Assembly (NCBI RefSeq): GCF_000473165.1
Contig: NZ_KI421504.1
Location: 272,501-336,500, forward strand
Reading direction: 5' to 3'
DNA length: 64,000 bases
Source of the DNA: Leisingera aquimarina DSM 24565
GTDB lineage: Bacteria; Pseudomonadota; Alphaproteobacteria; Rhodobacterales; Rhodobacteraceae
Part shown: in pieces, positions 8,304 to 41,657 of the stretch
Layout: every line of letters starts with the position of its first letter
How positions within the stretch are numbered: the stretch's first letter is position 1
Position numbers and translations under genes: made by a program
The notes under the pieces: generated by a model
What the model was told of the DNA's origin: nothing
Seen by the model: the letters and a program-made list of their open reading frames with translations, nothing else
The model's database searches: none

Positions 8304-9336
8304 TCAAATCCAAGAAATTTCAATACCCAGGGCCGCCATCTGCTGCGCAACGCTGACAACAACTTGAGATATGGTGCCAGAGTTTGCCAGTACACACCCG
8401 CCACGTGAGCTACTCCCCAATCGCTGGACAGTTTCCGGCGTAGATTGAGCTACTCTCTGCCCCTGCTGACCGGGTTGGGTTTCGTCTTTTCTCAGCCAAT
8501 GGACCACGGCTGGCGGTCTGCCGCCAAGGGCGGAATGCGGGCGCTTCCGATTGTAGAATCCCACCCACTTTCCGACGCCCGCCCTTGCCTCAGATCCGGT
8601 TTCCCAAGCCTGCAGGTAGACGCATTCGTATTTCAGCGGCCGCCATAGCCGTTCCACGAAGATGTTATCAAGGAACCGGCCTTTTCCATCCATCGAGATG
8701 CGCACGCCAGCTCTGCGCAGCCGGTCCGTCCAGGCGAAGGAGGTGAATTGCGAGCCCTGATCGGTGTTCATGATGCCGGGCGGGCCGAAGCGGTGGATTG
8801 CCTCGTTCAGCGCCTCGACGCAGAAGCCGGCTTCCAGCGTATTCGAGATGCGCCAGGCCAGCACCTTGCGCGTGTGCCAGTCAAGGACCGCCACCAAATA
8901 CAGGAACCCCTTGCGCATCCATTGCCCGGCAGGCGATTGCGAAGCAATCTGCCGAGAGGGGCAGGTAGGTGATGTCGGCCGCCCAGACTTGGTTTGGGCG
9001 GGTCACGCTCAGACCGCGCAACAGATAGGGGTATGTCTTGCGTCCCTTTGCCGCCTTGCTGGTGTTGGGCTTCTGATAGATCGGCATCAAGCCCATGAGG
9101 CGCATCAACCGTCTGATCCGCTTCTCATTCACCAGATGGCCCTCGTTCCGCAGATGCCACGTCATCTGCCGGACACCGAAGAACGGCGTTTCCAGAAACC
9201 GCTCGTCGATCAGACGCATTAGCGCCAGGTTCAGCGCCGTCTCGCCCTTGGGCGTGTAATAGAACGACGACCGCAGGATCGACAGCAGCCTGCATTGCTT
9301 GCCGATAGACAGCTCAGAATTGGCAGGTTCGACCAT
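8304..9336 (-). pseudogene. IS3-family transposase OrfB, disrupted by a 40-bp insertion
   Basis: From an ATG at 9336 the protein follows the rve integrase fold up to VWAADITYLPL (first catalytic Asp). The frame then runs into unrelated residues and stops at 8881. The rest resumes in another frame from 8918 (MRKGFLYLVAVLDWHTRKVL), with the second Asp (MNTDQGSQFTS) and the Glu region (GRFLDNIFVERLWRPLKYE). The break coincides with bases 8919-8958. The second frame also reads out past the IS end at 8406 to a stop at 8304. Confidence 0.85.
8919..8958. repeat. 40-bp REP-like hairpin inserted in the transposase gene
   Basis: Removing these 40 bases rejoins YLP to MRKGFLYL, the expected IS3 OrfB sequence. 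The insert folds as GGCAGATTGC-TTCG-CAATCGCCTGCC on the minus strand: a near-perfect stem capped by a TTCG tetraloop. This resembles repetitive extragenic palindromes. No second copy was noticed in this window. Confidence 0.65.
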
Positions 9337-9344
9337 CTTGCGCC

Positions 9345-9638
9345 TCACTTGCCGATCCACGGCTTGAGCTTTCGTGACAAAAAATCGTTGGCAACTGCCA
9401 GCTCCCCGATCTTGGCATGCAATTCCTTGACCCGCTCTTCGCCGATCTCCGGGCCTTTCTTGCTGCCACGCTCGAACACACCCGACGCGCCTTCGAGCAG
9501 GGCCCGCTTCCATTGATGGATCATCGTCGTATGCATACCGAACCGGCTTGCCAACTCGGCCGCCGTCTCCTCGCCCTTCAGGGCCTCCAGCGCGACCTTC
9601 GCCTTGAACTCGGGCGCGTGCTGCTTGCGTTTCGACAT
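9345..9638 (-). CDS. IS3-family transposase OrfA
   Basis: A 97-residue protein with the IS3 OrfA HTH (PEFKAKVALEALKGEETAAE, MHTTMIHQWKRALLEGA) followed by a leucine-zipper-like segment (EERVKELHAKIGELAVANDF). It overlaps orfB, consistent with the programmed frameshift that makes the OrfAB transposase. OrfA itself looks intact. Confidence 0.85.
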   Translation of the reverse strand: MSKRKQHAPEFKAKVALEALKGEETAAELASRFGMHTTMIHQWKRALLEGASGVFERGSKKGPEIGEERVKELHAKIGELAVANDFLSRKLKPWIGK

Positions 9639-9734
9639 CTCTGATCTCCTTCTCGTCGAAGATCAGCAGACAGCAAATCGTAGCTTAGGTCAGTGTCCGA
9701 AATTCGGGGGGTAGCTCAGATCTGCGAGCATATC

Positions 9735-10452
9735 AGTTGCATATGACCGACACGGGCGTGACAGCCTCAAACGTTCAACACCCGCATTGTCGCTCTGCGT
9801 TTTTTTCTTCGGCATGACCTGCGGGCGTGAGGAGATGAAACGGTTCATGCAGTTCCGAACGCAGCCACGGAAGCTGCCTATCGTGTTCAGTGTTGAAGAA
9901 GTGTCCGATCTGCTGATGGCCGCGCCGGGACCGGGGCTCAAATACCGCGCGGCGCTCAGCATCTCCTATGGCGCCGGACTGCGGGCATCCGAGGTTTGCA
10001 ATCTCAAGGTCTCTGATATCGACAGCGACCGGATGCTGTTCCACGTCGATCAGGGCAAAGGCGGGAAAGATCGCAAGGTCATGCTGTCGCCTGGGTTGCT
10101 CAACTTGCTGCGCGACTATTGGCACGACGCGCGACCCGAAGGCTGGCTGTTCCCCGGCAAGCCGAAGATCAACCCGATTTCATAGCGGCAGCTGAACAGG
10201 GCGTTCACCTCGGCCAAGAACATGGCGGGCATCAAGAAGGCCGCCACGCTGCACACCCGGCGACACAGCTTCGCCACCCACCTGCTTGAGGCCAACACCG
10301 ATGTTCGGGTGATCCTGCTGCTCGGCCATGCCAAGCTGACAATCACCGCCCAATATACCCATGTCGCCACCAAGACGATCCGGGACACGGTCAGCCCCTA
10401 CGAGATGCTGGCCCGGTTGCAGGACCAGACGGTGAAGCGAAGCCTGGAATGA
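9735..10452 (+). pseudogene. Tyrosine recombinase remnant (IS91-associated type)
   Basis: The stretch from about residue LPIVFSVEEVSDLL to [19 protein letters not shown] matches a XerC/D-like recombinase: GAGLRASEVCNL carries the first catalytic Arg, [13 protein letters not shown] gives Hxx[16 protein letters not shown] gives the final His and Tyr. An in-frame TAG at 10183 splits it. A 7-T run near 9800 shifts the N-terminal frame (expected FNTRIVALRFFFGMT is out of register). It is directly followed by an IS91-type transposase, the usual partner of this recombinase. The 5' end was probably lost next to the IS3 element. Confidence 0.8.
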
Positions 10453-10875
10453 CCCGGCGCCGGGGTACCCCGCCGGAGGCTGGAGATCGCTGACATCTTC
10501 CGGAGATACCGCCCCGCGTGGCGGCGGGCCAATGCCGGACATGTCAGCCTGGCCCAACTCAAGGTGATGTCGGCGATAGAAGCCTGCCGCACGCAAGCGC
10601 TCGGCGGGCATGTGGCGGAATGCTCAAAGTGCGGCCACCAGCACATCGTTTACAATTCATGCAAGAACCGTCACTGCCCCAAATGCCAGGGACCCGCGGC
10701 GCGAGACTGGATGGCGGCGCAGGCCGAAGATCTTTTGCCAGTGGAATATTTCCACGTCGTCTTCACCCTGCCAGCCGGGATCTCCCGCATCGCCCACTGG
10801 AACAAGCAGGCGGTCTATGGCCTCTTGTTCCGCGCTTCTGCATACACCTTCAGACCATCGGCAGCGATGGTCTGA
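10449..10875 (+). pseudogene. Truncated IS91-family transposase (N-terminal zinc-binding part)
   Basis: From about 10474 the frame encodes LEIADIFRRYRPAWRRANAG and then the IS91 zinc-binding module, with C-x2-C pairs in CSKCGHQHIVYNSCKNRHC and CPKC. The sequence FHVVFTLPAG and YGLLFRASA follow, typical of the family. Homology stops abruptly at about 10835, where an inverted copy of the last 27 bases begins. The catalytic double-Tyr domain is absent and the start region is frameshifted. Confidence 0.8.
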
Positions 10876-10892
10876 AGGTGTATGCAGAAGCG
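10833..10892. repeat. Perfect palindrome, 27-bp arms with 6-bp loop
   Basis: Bases 10833-10859 are an exact reverse complement of 10866-10892, separated by GGCAGC. The left arm is the last readable part of the IS91 transposase; the right arm is its inverted copy. The structure marks the junction between the IS91 remnant and the retron region. Confidence 0.9.
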
Positions 10893-10972
10893 ATAGGTAG
10901 GCCATGTCTTTTGGCATTCTTTGTCTAACCGAAATTCCACAAATGCGGCTGCAACGGCTTAAGTCGAGCATT

Positions 10973-12646
10973 TCAAAGAGAAGCGAGCAGGTCGTTTACA
11001 TATCCTGATTTGACCGCCAAGAAAGGGATTGTCCGGTCATCATCATTTGGCCCTCTGACGATTACGCCAACGACCTTTCCCGATAATAGCACCGGACCAC
11101 TACTCATTCCCTCGTAAGTGCCCGACAGCAAGGCGATCACGTTGTCAGATGTGGCGGGGGTGCCGTCAAAGGTTTGCCGCGAGACCCCTGTTACTTCAGT
11201 GTCTCGGATCGTCAGAGACGTGCTGTCCAGATTTGAAGGATAGCCCGCAGCCTGCACCGCAGATCGGATGCCGAGCGCGCTAAATTCGGCTGACGATGCC
11301 ATTTGCAGAGTGGCAGCAGGATTGAATGCGGGCAACGGAGTTCGTAGCCGAATTAGCGCAAGGTCGTTGTGATCCTCGCGGGCTACCTCGTCCGCTTCCA
11401 TCGGGAATGCAGGGTTTTGTCGCGGGAAGATGCGCAGGTTTGGTCCGAGGCAATGCGCGCAAGTTACGAACAGGTTCTCGTCGACAGCGAAACAAGTGCC
11501 CACTGATCCGCCATCTGTGTCATTTTCGAGATACCAAACGGCTGCGTTGAGAACGTCGCTATCCTCGACCAGCGGAATCGAAATGTGTTGGCCCGAACAC
11601 AGTGCATTGAACCTTGCAGCTAGGCGGCGGAAGACCTGATCGGTATATCCTTTCACCTGCCGAATGAACTCAATTTTCCCTCGGACCACCCATTCGAAGT
11701 TCGTAGCCTCCTGTTCCGGTAACCGGCCTCTATCCGGACGCTTCTCGTTGAAATGCCGCGCCGATGCCGCGGCAAAGCCATTTAGCTCCCAGCCATGAAG
11801 CATCGCCCGGACGTCGCGAACAAATTTGCGCTTCACGTTGACTTTCTCATTCACAATCAGACCTGTGACTTCCTGTTGAAAGGCGAGGCCCAGCAGGCGC
11901 GTCTTTGTGTGGTTAATTCTAAATCCGTTGTCTTCAATCATCTGCTGAAAGGTGTCGGATAGAATAAACTCTTCGTGGCTGTCGGGGTTTGCAAAACGTC
12001 CTATTGGGGCAGGAAAGGTCCTGCGATTGGAGGAAATCGTGATGTCATCGGCGTATCGCGTGTAGGTGCATCCAAGTTGCCTGCAAAATCGAGCCAACTC
12101 AGCATCGAGTTTGTCTGAAACAATATTCGCAAGTATTGGCGATAGCGCGGCGCCCGGCATCAGGACATGTGTTGTTCGGAGGGCGCCGTCGACCTCCTTT
12201 TCAGTTTGAAAACAAGAGATGTGTGCGATGAACTGGGCAATCTCTTCTGGGTAGCCATACGGCGGGGCCATCAATCGCCCGCGAACTCGTCCGAAGTGAA
12301 TGGTTTCGAAGTAGTCTTCGAGGTCAATGTTCAAAACCCAGCGCTTACCGACATGCTGTCGGGCATTACTCACGATGCTGCGTTGTTGCCCGCTGACAAA
12401 CCCATGCACGTGAGCACGAGGACGATAGTCGCCTTCAAGTAGCCGAAGGATGTCGCGCTGCAACTTGAGAAGCGCAATACTAGGTGCGCAAATGCGACGT
12501 GTTCCACCGCTCTTCTTCGGGATGGTGAATTCTTTGTATCTTGCACCTGGAGCAAGCCCATATGCGATGTAGACCATTTTCCGACGGTAGTCTCGACCGA
12601 GCGCAAAAGCGATTTGTCTAAGGTTAGCAAATGACTTTAGTGACAT
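10973..12646 (-). CDS. Retron-type reverse transcriptase fused to a trypsin-like serine protease
   Basis: A 557-residue protein. Residues 1-340 are a retron-type RT: fingers motif FTIPKKSGGTRRICAPS, region X NARQH (94-98, the retron NAxxH motif), NIDLEDYF with metal-binding D108, catalytic YADD (198-201) and the retron VTG motif (260-262). Residues 365-557 are a trypsin-like protease with a complete triad: H398 (VTCAHC), D428 (HNDLALI), S515 (GMSSGP). RT-protease fusions are known among predicted defence retrons, where the RT makes msDNA and the partner domain acts as effector; protease targets are generally unknown. A structured RNA lies 4 nt upstream of the start. Base composition is lower in GC than the neighbours, suggesting transfer. 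Confidence 0.9.
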   Translation of the reverse strand: MSLKSFANLRQIAFALGRDYRRKMVYIAYGLAPGARYKEFTIPKKSGGTRRICAPSIALLKLQRDILRLLEGDYRPRAHVHGFVSGQQRSIVSNARQHVGKRWVLNIDLEDYFETIHFGRVRGRLMAPPYGYPEEIAQFIAHISCFQTEKEVDGALRTTHVLMPGAALSPILANIVSDKLDAELARFCRQLGCTYTRYADDITISSNRRTFPAPIGRFANPDSHEEFILSDTFQQMIEDNGFRINHTKTRLLGLAFQQEVTGLIVNEKVNVKRKFVRDVRAMLHGWELNGFAAASARHFNEKRPDRGRLPEQEATNFEWVVRGKIEFIRQVKGYTDQVFRRLAARFNALCSGQHISIPLVEDSDVLNAAVWYLENDTDGGSVGTCFAVDENLFVTCAHCLGPNLRIFPRQNPAFPMEADEVAREDHNDLALIRLRTPLPAFNPAATLQMASSAEFSALGIRSAVQAAGYPSNLDSTSLTIRDTEVTGVSRQTFDGTPATSDNVIALLSGTYEGMSSGPVLLSGKVVGVIVRGPNDDDRTIPFLAVKSGYVNDLLASL

Positions 12647-12650
12647 GGGT

Positions 12651-12794
12651 GCATCAACGACCTACAATCTCGCATTCCCAACGTCGCGGGAATTTCGCAA
12701 TTCCGTAACAGCATGTAGCGGGGCGAGTTGAAAGTAACCTTCTCGCAGGTGTCGCAGGTAACACAACACTTGGTTGATTGCAGGCCGCCGATGC
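12651..12794 (-). ncRNA. Predicted retron msr-msd noncoding RNA
   Basis: Minus-strand bases 12794-12776 (GCATCGGCGGCCTGCAATC) pair along all 19 positions with 12669-12651 (GATTGTAGGTCGTTGATGC): 15 Watson-Crick and 4 G-U pairs, no mismatch. The wobbles are G-U only on the minus strand, so the helix belongs to an RNA transcribed with the RT gene. It matches the a1/a2 stem that closes retron RNAs and ends 4 nt before the RT start. Inside are smaller stems (GGAATT-GCGA-AATTCC; AACC...GGTT; a GTGTT/GACAC hairpin) and a tandem ACCTGCGA repeat. I could not assign the branching guanosine with confidence: there is no TAGC directly after a1. Confidence 0.72.
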
Positions 12795-13209
12795 TTCGTA
12801 CTCTGTACGTTTTCAGATGATTTTCTGCAACTATGGAAAGCTCACGTTTTCTCCAATGCTGCCGTTCGTTCAAACCGCAGCGAAAGCCTGCTTCCCGCCC
12901 GACCTACCCAATAAAAGAGCTAGGGGACGTCGTCCCCACGCGCCTGCAATACAATTAGACATGGCGGTGTCCTCGGCTGACGCTTGCGGGCCGCACCAAC
13001 CCCATCGAATTGCATTGTACTTGCTATCCCCAACCCTCGCCGGGAGCAGGTTTTAGAGACGAGCGCCCTGAAGGGCTTCGTTCAAAACCAGTTTTGAAAG
13101 AGGGAAATATGTGCAGCGTCATCACAGGGCCGAAGGCAAAGCTATGCGGCGCAAAGGCAATGTTCTGTCGCAAAAGGCAGAACTATGTATCGCCTCATAA
13201 CAGAAGAAG
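12795..13209. other. Non-coding stretch between retron RNA and tRNA-Arg
   Basis: No convincing gene. A small perfect hairpin (CGTAC-TCT-GTACG, 12797-12809) sits two bases outside the retron stem and could be part of the RNA or its promoter region. Other small dyads are GGGGACG-T-CGTCCCC (12923-12937), TTCAAAAC-CA-GTTTTGAA (13081-13098) and GTTCTG...CAGAAC (13162-13183), the last a possible processing or termination element just beyond the tRNA. Confidence 0.5.
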
Positions 13210-13286
13210 TGGCGGACCGAGGAGGATTCGAACCCCCGACCCCTTGATTCGTAGTCAAGTACTCTATCCAGCTGAGCTATCGGTCC
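13210..13286 (-). tRNA. tRNA-Arg (anticodon ACG)
   Basis: A 77-nt cloverleaf with encoded CCA. The acceptor stem is GGACCGA / TCGGTCC, the D-arm AGCTCAGCTGGATAGAGT, the anticodon arm CTTGA-CTACGAA-TCAAG, and the T-arm carries GGTTCGAATCC. The anticodon is ACG, read as inosine at the first position in bacteria. It borders the mobile patch 8.3-13 kb, as tRNA genes often do. Confidence 0.95.
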
Positions 13287-13511
13287 ACTGCGGCGGATGT
13301 AATCGCAGCTTCGCACAGGCGCAACCCCAAAAGAGATCTCAGCCCGTATTTCTTGCCTGTCTTTCCCGCCAAAGCGCACAGGCCGGTTGAGCGCTGCCAG
13401 CTTCTGCAACCCCAGCCCGGCTAAATGTGGTATAAGGCAAATGCTGACGGTCTTCCCACCGCGCTTGAGCCAGGGAAAGCAACACTTAGAAACGGAAAAA
13501 GGGGACAGAAA

Positions 13512-14162: not shown

Positions 14163-14233
14163 CCGACAGAGCATAAGGGCAGAACCGGCTTCTCCGGCAG
14201 TTCTTGCCGACACTCACAGGAGGAGGACAGCTT

Positions 14234-16006
14234 GTGAGCGGCCAAAGTAAAAAAACAACGGTCCGGCGCCAGCTTGGAGCAGTGCTTTTTGCCGATGTCG
14301 TCGGCTATGCCCGGCTTATGGGCAACGACGAGATCGACACATACAGCGCACTAAAGTCCCTGCTGGAACAGCTGGAAACAGCATGCAATGCGCATGACGG
14401 TCAGGTGGTTGCAGTTCGCGGCGACGGGGTTCTAGCCTTGTTTGAAACAGCGACAAACGCGGTAAAGTTCGGTGTCGAACTGCACCGCATTGCAGAGCAA
14501 AACAACAGCGCACGGCCAGAAGACCAGCAGCTTCGGTTTCGCGCCGGTGTGCATATGGGCGAAATCCTGATTGATGACCGGGGCATTCACGGCGACAATG
14601 TCAATATTGCCGCCCGGCTGCAGGAGATTGCCGAACCGGGCCGGGTTTTTGTCAGCGGTTCGGTTTATGAGCAAATCCGCAACCGGTTGCGCTTCGGCTT
14701 TGAATTTCTTGGCCCGCAGCGCCTTAAGAATATCGCGGAACCGGTGCCATCTTATTGTGTCCGCAGCGAGGTCGCCGGAGCAGCCATGGCCGCCACCCGG
14801 CGTCCTCCGGAAGCTCAGCCAGCAGGCTGTCCTCCACCCGGCATACCATCGGTAGCCGTGCTGCCATTTGCCAGCCTGAGCGGCGACCAGTCCGACAGCT
14901 GGTTTGCGGACGGACTGACAGAAGACATCATCCTGAACCTGTCTAAGTTCAAGAACCTCTTTGTCATAGCCCGCAACTCGGCCTTTTTCTTCAAGACCCG
15001 TTCGATGCCCCCTCAGGAAGCCGCGCGCGAGTTAGGGGTACGCTACGTCGCGCGCGGCAGCGTCCGCCGGGCCGGAGCACGGGTACGGATCGCCATAGAA
15101 TTGATTGACGCGGATTCGGGGCGAACGATCTGGGGCGAGCGCTATGACCGGAACATCGACGATATTTTTGCCATACAAGACGAGGTAACCGATGCAATCG
15201 TGGCGGCAACGGCCGTTCTGATCGAAGCCCAGGAACGCAAACGGATGGCGCAGGCAGCACCGTCTGACCTCGCCGCCTATGGCTTTGTTCTGCGCGGGCA
15301 GCAGTTTATTTTCCGCTACACCAGGCAGGATAACCGCGAAGCCCAAACCCTGTACGAACGGGCCCTTGCGCGGGACCAGGATTATGCCCGGGCCTCGGCC
15401 GCGATTTCACGCACCCTGAACATTGATTGGCGCTATTCCTGGGCCAAAGACGCCGAACACGCGTTGGACACGGCTCTGTCTTATGCCCAAAAAGCGGTGG
15501 AGCTCGACCCGACCGATGCCCGCGGTTTCGGCGAGCTGGGCTTTGTGCATCTTTACCGTAAAGAGCATGACGCGGCGATTGGCGCCTACCGGCGCGCCCT
15601 TGCGCTTAATCCGAACGATGCCGACCTTCTGTCGGACTATGCTGATGCACTGGCCCATTCCGGCGACAATGAAACAGCCATCGAAAGCCTGCAGCAGGCA
15701 ATGCGGCTGAACCCCTATTTTCCCGATCAATACCTCTGGCACCTGGGCGGCGCCTACTACAACCTCAAGCACTATGAGGCAGTCATCGAAACGCTCACCA
15801 AGATGAACAACCCGACCGAGGGACAGCGGATGCTGGCCGCCAGCTATGCACAGATGGGCAAGATGGAACTGGCCCGGGACATGGCCGCCCGGCACCGCGA
15901 AGCACATCCGAATTTCTCACTGAAACGCTGGACCGAAGTGCAGCCCGACCGGCTGGAAGAAGACACCCAGCATTTTGTCGAAGGTCTGAAGAAAGCCGGT
16001 TTCTAA
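14234..16006 (+). CDS. Class III adenylate/guanylate cyclase with TolB-like and TPR domains
   Basis: A 590-residue protein from a GTG at 14234, chosen because AGGAGGACAG lies directly before it; an ATG at 14204 has no such site. Residues 15-180 form a class III cyclase catalytic domain: LGAVLFADVVGYARLMG with the first metal Asp, RGDGVLALFE with the second, and GIHGDNVNIAARLQEIA. Residues about 210-340 match the region found after cyclase domains in many alphaproteobacteria (VAVLPFASLSGD, FADGLTEDIILNLSK, GVRYVARGSVRRAG). The remainder is TPR repeats (AQKAVELDPTDARGFGELGF, YRRALALNPNDADLLSDYAD). No membrane segment is visible. It probably makes cAMP in response to an unknown partner bound by the TPRs. 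Confidence 0.88.
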   Translation: MSGQSKKTTVRRQLGAVLFADVVGYARLMGNDEIDTYSALKSLLEQLETACNAHDGQVVAVRGDGVLALFETATNAVKFGVELHRIAEQNNSARPEDQQLRFRAGVHMGEILIDDRGIHGDNVNIAARLQEIAEPGRVFVSGSVYEQIRNRLRFGFEFLGPQRLKNIAEPVPSYCVRSEVAGAAMAATRRPPEAQPAGCPPPGIPSVAVLPFASLSGDQSDSWFADGLTEDIILNLSKFKNLFVIARNSAFFFKTRSMPPQEAARELGVRYVARGSVRRAGARVRIAIELIDADSGRTIWGERYDRNIDDIFAIQDEVTDAIVAATAVLIEAQERKRMAQAAPSDLAAYGFVLRGQQFIFRYTRQDNREAQTLYERALARDQDYARASAAISRTLNIDWRYSWAKDAEHALDTALSYAQKAVELDPTDARGFGELGFVHLYRKEHDAAIGAYRRALALNPNDADLLSDYADALAHSGDNETAIESLQQAMRLNPYFPDQYLWHLGGAYYNLKHYEAVIETLTKMNNPTEGQRMLAASYAQMGKMELARDMAARHREAHPNFSLKRWTEVQPDRLEEDTQHFVEGLKKAGF

Positions 16007-16080: not shown

Positions 16081-16926
16081 TCAGTCGCCGGTTCCGCGTG
16101 CTTTCGCTCCGCTCACCTTGGCGCCGCTGACTTTGGCACCACTGACCTTGGCGCCGCTGACTTTGGCGCCACTGACCTTGGCGCCGCTGACCGAAGGTCC
16201 GCCGTCACCGAAATAGACATCCAGCAGCACTTGTTCCAGCATGCCGGTCATCACATCCATCCGGATCGAGTAATCGGCCTTATCATAATCCCAGACCCGG
16301 ATGTCGTTTGCGATCTGATACTCTGCCGAGGCAACCCCGGTCACGGAAGGGTTCAGCGGTGCCCGGGAAACCTGAACCTGACCGGCAGGCGTTTCTGGAC
16401 CCGTCGCACTGTCACCGTCACCATGCACAAGGAAAATCACCGGCTCCGGCAACTCAAAGTAGGTTCCTTCGTAGGAAAACCCGTAGATACGAGCAAGATT
16501 CGCATCATCGCTTAGCTGATCGCCAAGCAGGTTGTTTCTGCCCCGGCCTTTCTGCCGCCGTTTTCCCGCCCTGGAATAGTCCTGCTGCCCAGCGTCATAA
16601 TCGCCGACCTGCTTCCACAAACCTTGCCGGGAACCGTGAGCAACCTCAAGTATAGTGCCTTGGGGAAATTGGCGCTGATGAATCCAAGGGTTGTTACTTC
16701 CCGATCCAACTTCATAGAGGCCATTTTCGGCCTTGTCATTCTGAGCCATAACCAGAACTTTGTCATCTGGCACAACAGTTTCGCCGTTTACTTTGGCACC
16801 TTCCAATTTCGGCATATTGCCAACCGTGCCAACAGCAGCCCCCGCAAATTTGGGGACTATTTTCATGTCGTCGATCAAACGCCCAAATAACAACACTTCA
16901 GAAAAACTCAGCAAAGACTCGGCCAC
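16081..16926 (-). CDS. Hypothetical protein with tail-fibre-like N-terminal domain and C-terminal SGAK repeats
   Basis: 281 residues from a GTG at 16926, eight bases after AGGAG; the frame is open three codons further. Residues about 25-100 (LEGAKVNGETVVPDDKVLVM, ENGLYEVGSG) resemble the 'GDRVLVKNQTAPAENGIYVV' module seen in phage tail and surface proteins. The C-terminus is six consecutive SGAK units (VSGAKVSGAK...) ending ARGTGD. No signal peptide is apparent. It is the last gene of the minus-strand run containing YcaO, TfuA and a metalloprotease, 138 bp after the protease stop. Possible roles are a substrate of the modification enzymes or a surface protein; neither is shown. Confidence 0.6.
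   Translation of the reverse strand: MAESLLSFSEVLLFGRLIDDMKIVPKFAGAAVGTVGNMPKLEGAKVNGETVVPDDKVLVMAQNDKAENGLYEVGSGSNNPWIHQRQFPQGTILEVAHGSRQGLWKQVGDYDAGQQDYSRAGKRRQKGRGRNNLLGDQLSDDANLARIYGFSYEGTYFELPEPVIFLVHGDGDSATGPETPAGQVQVSRAPLNPSVTGVASAEYQIANDIRVWDYDKADYSIRMDVMTGMLEQVLLDVYFGDGGPSVSGAKVSGAKVSGAKVSGAKVSGAKVSGAKARGTGD
16102..16195. repeat. 15/30-bp tandem repeat encoding SGAKV units
   Basis: Tandem units alternate between GCTGACTTTGGCRCC and ACTGACCTTGGCGCC, giving a 15-bp period with a 30-bp higher period. They encode the six SGAK repeats. Length variation between strains is expected for such arrays. Confidence 0.85.
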
Positions 16927-17073
16927 TGTACACACTCCTGTGGCTATGAAAACAACTCAGGATGACAATTCAAAAAAGACAGGTCTGGAATTCCTGCAGG
17001 TTCTGATGCCTTGAATGTCCCCCTGAGGGGTAAAATAGCACAAAAAGAATAGAAATTGTAGACAATCGGCCTT

Positions 17074-18396: not shown

Positions 18397-19761
18397 TCAC
18401 CCTATGTGCCCTGCCTGGTCCCTGCCTTCCGGTGCAGACTGTGTTTTTCCCTTTTGATGATACATGAATTCACGCCGGATCAGCGCATAGAATTCATCAA
18501 GGTCTTTAAGGCCGATACCCGAGGCATACTTATCCAGGTCATCCGGAATTTCCCGCTGCAGGCGTGTTTCGAAGTACCAGAGGATCAACCGCACCCGGTC
18601 CTGCTCAGGCTGGTCGCTGCCCGGCTGGTTTTGTTCAGCCAGCCACTGCGACTTGGAAATGGCGCGGGATTTCAATTGCGCAAAGGCGCCTGCCTGCCGA
18701 AGCTCTGCCAGCAAGTGCAGATCCAGCTGTTCGCCCAAGGCATTCACGGCGGTGCCAGCCAGCGTTGTTCCTCCAAGCAGCGCTTCATACCCGTCAGCCG
18801 TCAGCCTGTTTTCAGCCAGCCACTGTTTGAGGTCGGCACTGCGGAAAAGCTTGAGTGTTTCCCGGTGGCTGTTCAATTGCTCTAAAATCTCTTGCCGGTC
18901 CGCGCGCATCCCCTTTCGTCTGGCATCCTCCAGCGCCAAGCAGCGCACTGCAGCACGGGTCCGGAATACACCAAAGCGCCCGGGCTCCAGGCGCAACTCA
19001 TCCAGCACCTGCAGGTCCGCATCCGGCAGGCTGTACGCCTCCGCCTCGATCCGCCGCACCAAACCCTGCCAGGCAAGCGAGCGTTCAACTTTCTCAGGTG
19101 GAATGGAAGCGGCCTTCCCCCCCGCCTCCAGAAAGGCCGCCATACGGATCAGCATCTTCTGCGCGTCCTCGCGCTTGGCATCCACCCGACCGGTTTCCAG
19201 CCAGGCCGAAAACCTGTCAAGCCAGGATGCATCCGCAAATCCCGCAAGGATCTGTTCCCAGGTCCTGTCGTGATAAAACAGTTGCTTGGCCGTTCTGAAC
19301 AGTTCCGCAGCCTGATCCGCTTCCAGCACCGCGTCAGCTGCCGCGCGCGCCAGGGTTGCCCGGATCGAGACCATCGGTTCGCTCAGCGGTGCAAAGCCCA
19401 ATTCTGCCGGGCTGTGCAGAACAGCAACTTCGTCGTCGTCGCAAATTTCACCTGCAGCATAGGCCTCATAGATGTCCCCAATGCCAACCATCCCGAACGC
19501 AGACAGTTCAGCCGCCCGCAGCGCCCCCATGCTGGCGCTGCCGAACACCGCGATCCCCTGCTCCAGCGCCCACAGGATTTCTTTGTGCCAGACCGAGGGC
19601 ACGCCTTCGAAGTACCCGTCGATCAAGCCGATGACCGTCGCACCTTGACGGGCGGCCCGGTAAATGTCGCCTTGACCAGCCGGCGGCAGAACAGTGGCAT
19701 TCAGCAGGTTCCAGACCTCCTCAGTGCTGATTGTCGGGCCTGCAAAAACAACTGCCGTCAA
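18397..19761 (-). CDS. TfuA-domain protein
   Basis: 454 residues. The N-terminal 200 residues match the TfuA family, which partners YcaO enzymes in thioamide-forming or trifolitoxin-type pathways: VVFAGPTISTEEVWNLL, LIDGYFEGVPSVWHKEILWA, GSASMGALRAAEL, GMVGIGDIYEAY. The C-terminal 250 residues are helical and unassigned, with surA-like composition but no clear domain. The start is a TTG overlapping the YcaO stop (TTGA), implying translational coupling. In characterised systems TfuA helps YcaO deliver sulfur or bind substrate. Confidence 0.85.
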   Translation of the reverse strand: MTAVVFAGPTISTEEVWNLLNATVLPPAGQGDIYRAARQGATVIGLIDGYFEGVPSVWHKEILWALEQGIAVFGSASMGALRAAELSAFGMVGIGDIYEAYAAGEICDDDEVAVLHSPAELGFAPLSEPMVSIRATLARAAADAVLEADQAAELFRTAKQLFYHDRTWEQILAGFADASWLDRFSAWLETGRVDAKREDAQKMLIRMAAFLEAGGKAASIPPEKVERSLAWQGLVRRIEAEAYSLPDADLQVLDELRLEPGRFGVFRTRAAVRCLALEDARRKGMRADRQEILEQLNSHRETLKLFRSADLKQWLAENRLTADGYEALLGGTTLAGTAVNALGEQLDLHLLAELRQAGAFAQLKSRAISKSQWLAEQNQPGSDQPEQDRVRLILWYFETRLQREIPDDLDKYASGIGLKDLDEFYALIRREFMYHQKGKTQSAPEGRDQAGHIG

Positions 19762-20963
19762 TCCTGCGCCTCCGCTGTTCTCAGGGCCCTCGGGCCTGCT
19801 ATGAAATCCGGATCGTCATGCGGCGCCTCCAGTCCCGGGATCACCGCGCGCACCACAGAGATACCCAGACCCGGACGCGACAAATCGACCGTCAGAACTT
19901 GCTCCATCCCCGCATCCCCCAGCCGGTTCAGGAGCCATGCCAGGTCATCTTCGAACGACGGCGATGAGTAGGACGGGCAATCTTGCAGCCGGTCCACCGG
20001 GTCGGTTCGAGCCAACACCGCCCGGACATACTGAGCGCGTTCTGCCGACGCCTTGGGGGTAAACTCATCCGGGTCCAGATCGTCGCGCGCGCCGGAGATA
20101 TAGGTCAGCCGCGTCTGTGCCGCCTCGGTCAGCGCCCGCAACAGGGCAATGGCCCGGTCCGGGTGGCAGCCGCTGCCTATGCCGATATGACCGGGCCGGG
20201 TGCCGCCTTCGCAAATCATGCAATGAAACGCCGCCACCCCGGTGTCCGAGGCAATATTCCAAACTCCGGCTGACAATCCTGCCGCAGCAAACCGTTCCAG
20301 CGCCGCACGGCAGCGCGGGTCGTCTATCGTTTCGGGATCAATACGCGGACCCGGCAGTGCATGGTGCCACAGAGTGATCGCATCCCTTTCAATCAACTCG
20401 CAGATGGCATGGCAGGTGGCTTCCGCCAAGCTGTTACCCGAGGCAAGACCGTTGGTCGTGCGCGGAAACGCACCCTGCCCGCCGCAGGGCCGCGCGGTAT
20501 AGTCGGTGTCAACCATTTCGTAGGGCAGCCAATGCGGCTGGCCTGACGCAAGATCCTCCCCCTCGATCCATAGCATCGGATGATGCGGATCAAAGCTGCC
20601 GCCGGTCACACGGGGCAGCCGCTCAACATCCGCAACAAATGCGTCTTGCCGCAAGTCCAGATAGCTGGCTGCCCGCAAGGGCAGTGTGATCCGTTCCGCG
20701 TGCCAGGTCTCGATCGCTTCCATCACGCCCGAGGCCTGTGCCGCTTCCAGCGTCAGCCCCTTGCCCAGCGCCACGGCAACGGAGCGGGAATTCGGCCTTG
20801 TTACCATAACGGTTGGCAATCCGATCCGGTCCAGCCCGGTCAGATTTGCAATGCGGGTGATGCCCATGCCGGCAAGATGCGACCGGACAACTGCCAACGT
20901 CTGCGCCGGATCGCACAGCCGGTGGGTGTCCAGAACATATCCCTTCTGCTGCGCCTTTTGCAT
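19758..20963 (-). CDS. YcaO-domain protein (ATP-dependent cyclodehydratase/thioamidation type)
   Basis: 401 residues from an ATG preceded by GAGGT. The YcaO ATP-binding signatures are present: GVMEAIETWHAE, and SLAEATCHAICELIERDAIT (the ExxxExxERD pattern), followed by GSGCHPDRAIALLRALTEAAQTRL. The C-terminus (GPRALRTAEAQD) lacks the PxPxP tail of azoline-forming YcaOs, fitting the TfuA-associated group instead. The enzyme phosphorylates a backbone amide to allow ring or thioamide formation. No short precursor peptide was recognised in the 143 bp upstream, so the substrate is open. Confidence 0.9.
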   Translation of the reverse strand: MQKAQQKGYVLDTHRLCDPAQTLAVVRSHLAGMGITRIANLTGLDRIGLPTVMVTRPNSRSVAVALGKGLTLEAAQASGVMEAIETWHAERITLPLRAASYLDLRQDAFVADVERLPRVTGGSFDPHHPMLWIEGEDLASGQPHWLPYEMVDTDYTARPCGGQGAFPRTTNGLASGNSLAEATCHAICELIERDAITLWHHALPGPRIDPETIDDPRCRAALERFAAAGLSAGVWNIASDTGVAAFHCMICEGGTRPGHIGIGSGCHPDRAIALLRALTEAAQTRLTYISGARDDLDPDEFTPKASAERAQYVRAVLARTDPVDRLQDCPSYSSPSFEDDLAWLLNRLGDAGMEQVLTVDLSRPGLGISVVRAVIPGLEAPHDDPDFIAGPRALRTAEAQD

Positions 20964-39740: not shown

Positions 39741-40271
39741 ATGAAAGGCTCCCGCCCCGAACAGGCCGTGCTGACCAAAGACACGGACATGAGTAAGACC
39801 GAAGACACCCGCCGCGTCATCGAAGGCATGGTCGACGGCCTGAACGACCACCGCATCAACGACATCGGCGAGTTCTTTTCCGAAGGCTTCCGTTGGCTCG
39901 GCAACCAGGGCTGTGGCACCAAGACCGGTCTGAAGGAATTCCAGGACAACTGGCAGCGCCCGTTCCAGGCGGCCTTCTCCGACAAGGTCTGCATCGACGA
40001 AGCCCGCCTCTATATGGGTGAATGGGCCGCTGCCTTCGGCCGCCAGGAAGCCACCCACTCGGGCAGTTTCCTGGGTATTGAGCCCACCGGCAAGCGAGTC
40101 GAGATCCGCTACATGGACTTCTGGAAGGTTGTCGACGGAAAGATCGTCGACAACTGGGTCAACGTGGATTTTGCCCATGTCGCGGCCCAGCTGGGTGTCG
40201 ATGTGTTCAACGGCGAAGGCTGGGAAGCCTATGATCGCGGTGAAAAGACTGCCCCCCGCCCGGACAAGTGA
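39741..40271 (+). CDS. SnoaL/NTF2-like protein (single domain)
   Basis: 176 residues; one SnoaL unit: EDTRRVIEGMVDGLNDHRIN, then GNQGCGTKTGLKEFQDNWQR and YMDFWKVVDGKIVDNWVNVDF. It is the second of four SnoaL-like genes in the cluster and the only single-domain one. It follows the importer genes after 133 bp and precedes the HisD-like gene by 54 bp, so it belongs to the same transcript or a close successor. Function unknown. Confidence 0.8.
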   Translation: MKGSRPEQAVLTKDTDMSKTEDTRRVIEGMVDGLNDHRINDIGEFFSEGFRWLGNQGCGTKTGLKEFQDNWQRPFQAAFSDKVCIDEARLYMGEWAAAFGRQEATHSGSFLGIEPTGKRVEIRYMDFWKVVDGKIVDNWVNVDFAHVAAQLGVDVFNGEGWEAYDRGEKTAPRPDK

Positions 40272-40325
40272 TCCAATGCCGGGTGGCGCCTCATGCCGCC
40301 CGGCCCTCCAGCCTGAGGATACCCC

Positions 40326-41657
40326 ATGACCATCGAATACCTGAAACGCGGCAAACCCGAAGCCGACCGGGCCGAGGACGACGCAAAGACCCGCACCGTG
40401 GTGGAAGCCACGCTGAAGGACATCGAAACCCGCGGCGACGCGGCTGTGCGCGAGCTTAGCGAGAAGTTCGACAACTACTCCCCCGCCTCCTTCCGTCTCA
40501 GCCAGCAGGAGATCGACGCTCTGATCGCCCAGCTGAGCGCGCGCGAGCTGGCAGACATCAAATTCGCCCAGGAGCAGGTACGCAATTTTGCCCAGGCGCA
40601 GCGCGACTCGATGCTGGACATCGAGGTCGAAACCCTGCCCGGCGTCATTCTGGGCCACAAGAACATCCCGGTTCAATCCGTGGGCTGCTATGTGCCCGGC
40701 GGCAAGTTCCCGATGGTCGCCTCCGCCCATATGTCGGTGGCCACTGCGTCCGTTGCAGGCGTGCCCCGCATCATCGCCTGCACCCCGCCGTTCAACGGCA
40801 AACCGAACCCCGCAGTGATTGCCGCCATGCATCTGGGAGGCGCGCATGAGATCTATGTGATGGGCGGCATCCAGGCGATTGGCGCTATGGCGATCGGCAC
40901 TGAAACCATCGACCCTGTCCATATGCTGGTTGGCCCCGGTAACGCCTTTGTGGCCGAGGCAAAGCGCCAGCTGTTCGGCCGCGTGGGCATAGATCTTTTT
41001 GCAGGCCCGACCGAGACTATGGTCATCGCCGATGAAACCACGGCTGACGCCGAGATTTGCGCCACCGATCTCTTGGGCCAGGCCGAACACGGTTATAACT
41101 CACCTTGCGTCCTGCTGACCAACTCCCGCAAGCTGGCGGAAGAAACTCTGTCCGAGGTGGACCGGCTGCTGGACGTGCTGCCGACGGCCGGAACAGCCAA
41201 AGTGTCCTGGGAGGAATACGGCGAGGTCATCGTCTGCGACACCTATGATGAGATGTTGCAGGTCGCGGATGACATTGCCTCTGAGCATGTGCAGGTGATG
41301 ACGGACCGAGACGACTGGTTCCTGGAAAACATGACCTGCTACGGCGCGCTGTTCCTCGGCGCGCGCACCAATGTGTCCAACGGGGACAAGGTGATCGGCA
41401 CCAATCACACGCTGCCGACCAAGAAGGCGGGCCGCTATACCGGCGGGCTGTGGGTCGGCAAATACCTGAAAACCCACAGCTATCAGAAGGTTCTGACAGA
41501 TGAGGCAGCGACCCTGATCGGTGAATACGGCTCGCGGCTGTGCATGCTGGAGGGGTTTGTCGGCCATGCCGAGCAATGCAACGTCCGGGTGCGCCGCTAT
41601 GGCGGCATCAACGTGCCTTACGGAGAGGCGGCACCTTACCGCGAGGCCGGCGAATAG
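40326..41657 (+). CDS. Histidinol-dehydrogenase-like NAD-dependent alcohol dehydrogenase
   Basis: 443 residues with the HisD fold: [60 protein letters not shown] and [19 protein letters not shown] with the active-site His. Such paralogues outside his operons oxidise other polar alcohols in two steps to carboxylates; the sulfopropanediol dehydrogenase HpsN is the best-known example. The catabolic context makes a biosynthetic HisD unlikely. The actual substrate here cannot be stated. Confidence 0.85.

Follow-up and report, generated by a model that had tools for sequence, protein, structure and literature searches.

A probable type XI retron with a fused trypsin-like protease and a structured upstream RNA in Leisingera aquimarina

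We analysed a 64,000-nucleotide stretch of Leisingera aquimarina DSM 24565 (contig NZ_KI421504.1, positions 272,501 to 336,500; hereafter the window, with positions counted from its first letter), focusing on a minus-strand gene that encodes a reverse transcriptase (RT) fused to a protease and on the RNA immediately upstream of it. As judged from sequence comparison, the locus combines three parts: a retron RT, a fused serine protease of the trypsin/HtrA fold, and a non-coding RNA (ncRNA) whose closing stem is conserved and whose msr-like hairpin covaries. We consider the locus a probable type XI retron, consisting of one gene plus an ncRNA, in which RT bound to multicopy single-stranded DNA (msDNA) would hold the fused protease inactive until phage infection. 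The locus adds a member to an already catalogued, little-studied retron type; what makes it of interest is the evidence for its RNA, together with the proposed gating.

A retron reverse transcriptase fused to a trypsin-like protease

The 557-residue protein carries the Pfam domains RVT_1 (residues 42–252) and Trypsin_2 (383–528), and its top PADLOC families, among 52 matched, are two RT-Protease_XI models (2.5e-150 and 2.4e-146) whose alignment spans nearly its full length. The original prediction, made from the DNA letters alone, had proposed a protease-fused retron RT bearing NARQH, VTG and YADD, and both the identity and the motifs held up: NARQH (N94, A95, H98), YADD (198–201) and VTG (260–262) lie where predicted, and N94, A95, H98, Y198, A199, D200, D201, V260, T261 and G262 are invariant in all 14 rows of a protein alignment (13 protease-type sequences, window copy included, and one RT-TIR). 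We take NAxxH and VTG to be retron-specific motifs, as that prediction did. The best structure match of the N-terminal half is retron Eco2, and the protease half matches HtrA/Deg proteases. YADD, NAxxH with VTG, and a C-terminal trypsin-like protease with a best type XI profile are thus all present, and a protein search found a single RT-protease in the window genome.

Known type XI retrons (RT-Protease_XI, PADLOC PDLC02959/PDLC02960) likewise have an RT and a C-terminal trypsin-like protease in one gene with an upstream ncRNA. The window protein scores 500 bits, against 565–664 for six of the seven distant members described below and 458 for L018, and it differs in two traits of its Rhodobacterales clade: MPG where PQG is usual in RT motif 4, and a 12-residue insertion at about residues 150–161. 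Unlike HtrA/Deg proteases, whose fold its protease half shares, it is fused to an RT; the Pfam scan of the 557-residue protein found no PDZ domain, and the open reading frame (ORF) stops with the protease domain. Type XII retrons (RT-TIR) are the second-best RT match, with a TIR effector in place of the protease. Retron Eco2/Ec67 (type I-C, RT-Toprim), which among solved structures is the best relative for the RT half, is also a single-gene RT-effector fusion, but its effector is described in PMC12405507 as a Toprim RNase, not a protease.

Close copies were found at seven loci by genome scan, on one viral contig and on one plasmid (97.7%); among 390 genomes of the order, one close copy was found besides that of the window's own genome. 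They share 79–98% protein identity, with L006 and L007 in pieces. Among close copies, in comparisons neither saturated nor near-identical, the ratio of non-synonymous to synonymous substitution rates (dN/dS) is 0.06–0.09 over RT residues 1–350 and 0.08–0.22 over protease residues 360–487; these ranges omit L009 (dS saturated), L014 (dS 1.1–2.5; ratios 0.03–0.05 and 0.11–0.13) and, for their few changes, window/L023 in the RT (0.27) and L002/L008 (0.30 and 0.00). By these ratios the RT-protease coding sequence is under purifying selection. The His-Asp-Ser triad, predicted to be intact, is indeed present (putative His398, Asp428 and Ser515), but the prediction missed a Ser that replaces Gly directly after the catalytic Ser in the window copy only; the other nine of nine close copies retaining the site have Gly. 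The sequence suggests that the window copy's protease may be weakened, and an intact relative is the better bench choice.

A conserved closing stem and a covarying inner hairpin

A 19-bp stem with four G–U pairs, closing a 144-nucleotide RNA that ends 4 nt before the RT, had also been predicted, and the RNA folds as described. The stem reads GCATCGGCGGCCTGCAATC / GATTGTAGGTCGTTGATGC, and the minimum free energy of 12647–12800 on the minus strand is −61.8 kcal/mol against a shuffle mean of −42.7 (s.d. 3.8; z −5.06), with none of 200 shuffles as stable. In an RNA alignment of ten copies, window included (nine distinct; L003, identical to L002 over the stretch, was omitted), all 26 tested pairs of closing stem and hairpin are kept and 234 of 234 cells are paired. 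Loss of the 19-bp stem in close homologues, which the prediction had named as refuting it, was looked for and not found, the stem being kept in 9 of 9 distinct RNAs; the paired share drops to 27–56% when partners are slid by 1–3 columns. On this comparative evidence, an ncRNA with a conserved closing stem is encoded at 12651–12794 on the minus strand. Among the close relatives six stem pairs vary, and a single one varies on both sides. The covariation that had been proposed as a check is weak in this set alone (two-sided change in 1 of 26 pairs, which 47 of 500 shuffles reach; a covariation score matched by 37 of 500), and we therefore turned to distant relatives, in which the inner hairpin does covary.

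The distant set comprised seven protease-fused loci at 29–33% identity (L015, L016, L018, L024, L025, L026 and L030), all seven with Trypsin_2 and RVT_1 and with RT-Protease_XI as best PADLOC model, together with loci that have a related RT and no Pfam protease domain (L027, L028, L053 and L054). Among them, inside a closing stem of differing sequence, we repeatedly find a hairpin with the pattern NNNNTG-loop-TGCGNNNN. A descriptor of closing stem plus hairpin, composed after the sequences had been read and thus not blind, matches all 11 close copies, five of the seven distant protease-fused loci and both cyanobacterial loci (L027 and L028), compared with 0 or 1 of 200 shuffles each. Unlike the window locus, none of five RT-Toprim loci matches it, nor does the one RT-TIR locus (L029), which does have a long closing stem upstream. 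The other failures are L015 and L018. Inspection by eye shows a variant hairpin in both L018 and L029, the former enclosed by a 13-bp stem (equalled by 1 of 100 shuffles); neither enters any pair count. Within the window, 2 of 708 tiles on both strands match the descriptor, one being the ncRNA site; the other, 40241–40600, we take as chance.

Across 11 such hairpins (10 distinct, L015 and L026 being identical), 60 of 60 cells pair and four of the six pairs show two-sided change. Two-sided cells number 15 against a shuffle mean of 4.7, a value that none of 500 shuffles reaches, and the paired share falls to 27–83% under sliding. These rows were selected because a hairpin had been seen: L018, L029 and the RT-Toprim loci are omitted, and L053 and L054, neither of which the descriptor returned, were added by eye. 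The closing stem clearly beats shuffles (0 to 3 of 100 as good) in the window, L009, L014, L016, L018, L024, L027, L028, L029, L030, L053 and L054. Because the distant closing stems are not alignable with each other, no pair count was made for them; when their 5′ arms are anchored at the inner end, similarity does not exceed 43%, except in four pairs (L015/L026, 100%; L025/L028, 62%; L016/L024, 54%; L025/L030, 50%). From these sequence comparisons the inner hairpin is probably the msr hairpin, and as a covarying element it may help in searches for related retrons.

A covariance model built from the close set found a single such RNA in the window genome. The 144-nt RNA had one match in a plasmid collection and, as a 22-base piece, one among viral contigs, both in records that the RT-protease searches had already returned, and none in a phage collection. 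No Rfam retron family reaches its gathering score within the window; at E ≤ 5 the sole Rfam match near the RNA is to a CRISPR repeat model, and we take it as chance, its 14.9 bits falling short of that model's gathering score (36). A sigma-70 scan, uninformative for this host, gave one match, on the opposite strand and no more than in shuffles, and lineage comparison fixed no position for the branch G.

Several of the loci without a Pfam protease domain are of note in themselves. On two cyanobacterial plasmids (L027, 2920–6994; L028, 2848–6888), a stand-alone RT of the clade is followed by a gene of 262–301 aa with no Pfam match above cut-off and by a gene with AAA_33 and WCX domains, and a closing stem and hairpin lie upstream at both; these are possibly retrons with untyped effectors. 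On a Nostoc plasmid (L053, 2905–5166), a related RT is fused to an AAA_5 domain (753 aa) behind a 13-bp closing stem and hairpin, and on a Herpetosiphon plasmid (L054, 2700–4659), a clade RT of 584 aa, in which Pfam found no domain beyond the RT, follows a 12-bp closing stem and hairpin.

A gating model and its alternatives

By analogy with studied retrons, the RT would prime on a guanosine near the a1 arm and copy the region 5′ of a2 into msDNA. The msDNA-bound RT may then keep the fused protease inactive, as suggested by Eco2, whose Toprim fragments are toxic without the RT domain while the full fusion is not, according to PMC12405507. Phage infection would alter or displace the msDNA and release the protease, which would cleave one or more host or phage proteins and so stop phage growth, probably at the cell's cost. 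Because no partner gene is common to all the neighbourhoods compared, the substrate is probably encoded elsewhere or by the phage. Because the ncRNA (144 nt) and all coordinates are defined and intact close relatives exist, whether an msDNA gates the protease, and what the protease cuts, can be tested directly.

HtrA proteases are usually trimers. Because Eco2 is a trimer as well (PMC12405507), we also entertain a more specific and, in our estimate, unlikely form of the model, by analogy with these two proteins: msDNA as a regulatory module in place of the HtrA PDZ domain, with an RT trimer holding three protease domains off and phage damage switching all of them on. If true, this would be a nucleic-acid-gated HtrA-like protease with a host or phage protein as substrate. 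In a literature search we met no protease-fused retron whose msDNA, trigger or target had been described, though the likeliest classification and census papers fell outside it and absence is unproven; in PMC12548924, PMC13405049, PMC8867640 and PMC12483538, the passages on protease or trypsin describe no protease-fused retron.

Several observations weigh against a functional type XI retron as read here. In the hairpin alignment, two covariation measures are unexceptional: 44 of 500 shuffles reach as many pairs with two-sided change, and 346 of 500 as many pair types. Taken alone, the closing stem is not significant in L015 (74 of 100 shuffles as good), L025 (38) or L026 (22), and the best closing stem of L015 is not the one that encloses its hairpin. 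Searched against the ten distant non-Toprim loci L015, L016, L018 and L024–L030, the close-set covariance model finds only L015, at its hairpin site (17.7 bits, E 0.021 in a 16-locus search); it finds nothing in L011, L012, L013, L019, L020 and L022 at E ≤ 10. In the protein, the usual Gln is missing from RT motif 4 in the Rhodobacterales clade. At sites that are invariant in the other copies compared, the window copy carries six amino-acid replacements of its own, one of them Gly516Ser next to the catalytic Ser, against six synonymous changes. The system is also dispensable, because the L007 copy has lost its YADD region.

The private changes raise the possibility, which we rate as rather unlikely but worth keeping in mind, that this is a decaying type XI retron whose RNA and RT are intact and whose protease, or perhaps whole system, is non-functional in this genome. 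Debris of insertion sequences (IS) flanks the locus, and three sister copies are disrupted: L006 by an insertion after about codon 38–44, L007 by loss of about codons 139–228, YADD among them, and L023 by an IS3-type element after codon 487. Against decay, the window ORF is full length, the ncRNA is intact and every triad residue is kept, and six non-synonymous to six synonymous changes make a small sample.

Nuclease-protease systems of the Hachiman and AVAST families also use a trypsin-like protease as a fused defence module, and a dedicated nuclease gated by the protease is documented for them in PMC12799240, which places the protease at the N terminus and a metallo-β-lactamase (MBL) nuclease gene immediately upstream. 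It is very improbable that the window protease acts in this way: it is C-terminal, with the ncRNA and a tRNA-Arg upstream, no neighbour family is common to all 12 neighbourhoods compared, and a Pfam scan of 36 proteins (two of them RTs), which covered part of the neighbours, gave no match to an MBL family. We give still less credence to a UG/DRT-like RT-protease (DRT, defence-associated RT) that makes DNA without retron-style msDNA and uses the RNA only as a scaffold: the unusual motif 4 and the occurrence, described in PMC12799240, of a nuclease-protease pair with a trypsin-like protease in some DRT systems fit it, but NAxxH and VTG in 14 of 14 rows, the best structure match to Eco2 and the architecture of closing stem plus msr-like hairpin argue against it.

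Neighbourhoods and the genomic slot beside tRNA-Arg

Table 1 Features of the retron locus and its slot in the window.
Feature	Position	Strand	Evidence
RT-protease fusion ORF, 557 aa, ATG start	10973..12646	−	PADLOC RT-Protease_XI 2.5e-150; Pfam RVT_1 and Trypsin_2
Retron-type RT half, residues 1–350; NARQH, YADD, VTG; motif 4 MPGAALSP	11597..12646	−	
Trypsin/HtrA-fold protease half, residues 361–557; His398, Asp428, Ser515; GMSSGP for GMSGGP	10976..11566	−	
Retron ncRNA (msr-msd), 144 nt	12651..12794	−	Fold; conserved over 10 aligned copies including window; covariance-model match
a1 arm of 19-bp closing stem	12776..12794	−	Descriptor; close-relative alignment
a2 arm, ending 4 nt before RT start codon	12651..12669	−	Descriptor; close-relative alignment
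Probable msr hairpin, GTGTTG-loop-CGACAC	12749..12769	−	Compensatory changes in distant relatives
Approximate tRNA-side boundary of acquired segment	12877..12900	.	Limits of G285/G181 homology, own-genome duplicate and L007 homology
tRNA-Arg(acg) beside variable slot	13210..13286	−	

The retron occupies a variable slot beside tRNA-Arg (Table 1). On the tRNA side, window homology to congeners G285 and G181 ends at 12876–12877, the tRNA-Arg duplicate within the same genome ends near 12895 and homology to L007 begins near 12900; on the other side, pieces of IS3-type and IS91-type transposases and of an integrase lie at 8304–10900. In G1435, 578 bp separate the match to window position 8328 from the tRNA-Arg match, compared with 4880 bp in the window, which holds the IS3/IS91 remains and the retron there. 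Twenty other congeners were searched for the slot, and for 11 of them the region was retrieved. Synteny extends over both flanks in L043, whose slot is nearly empty, and over the tRNA flank in L041 and L042. The other eight, which were not part of the defence-gene scan, have a short stretch around the tRNA in common with the window, plus an integrase-like stretch in L051.

The proposal that the locus sits in a defence setting gains support from two congeners. Beside the same tRNA-Arg, G285 (L041, 8098–14914) carries a cyclase of the cyclic-oligonucleotide-based antiphage signalling (CBASS) type with a patatin effector, an RmrA-like gene and a ThsB/TIR-like gene, and G181 (L042, 3992–6980) carries in the same slot a C5 DNA methylase followed by a DndB/DpdB-like gene; in the window itself there is IS debris, and a scan of ten ORFs revealed no further clear defence gene. 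For the cyclase-TPR gene at 14204–16006, a Pycsar assignment was considered and is not claimed, the PycC matches being weak (best 1e-11).

Elsewhere, the retron of L002 lies among conjugation genes beside an AAA_13 protein, and clustering shows that L003 and L008 share this protein and several conjugation genes with it. L004 has its retron near a type ISP restriction enzyme, and those of L023 and L024 are carried by conjugative plasmids. The L024 retron adjoins genes for an OLD-type ATPase and a UvrD helicase, a Gabija-like pair.

Other features of the window were recorded in passing. A perfect 28-nt inverted repeat with a 4-nt loop (10833–10892) lies just downstream of the RT gene and adjoins the IS91-type transposase remnant, and tRNA-Arg with about 300 nt of downstream flank (12895–13332) is nearly duplicated (92–97%) at about 1.2 Mb of G000:C1. 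Two adjacent ORFs at 18397–20963 resemble a TfuA/YcaO pair, and the ORF at 16081–16935 ends in repeated SGAKV units.
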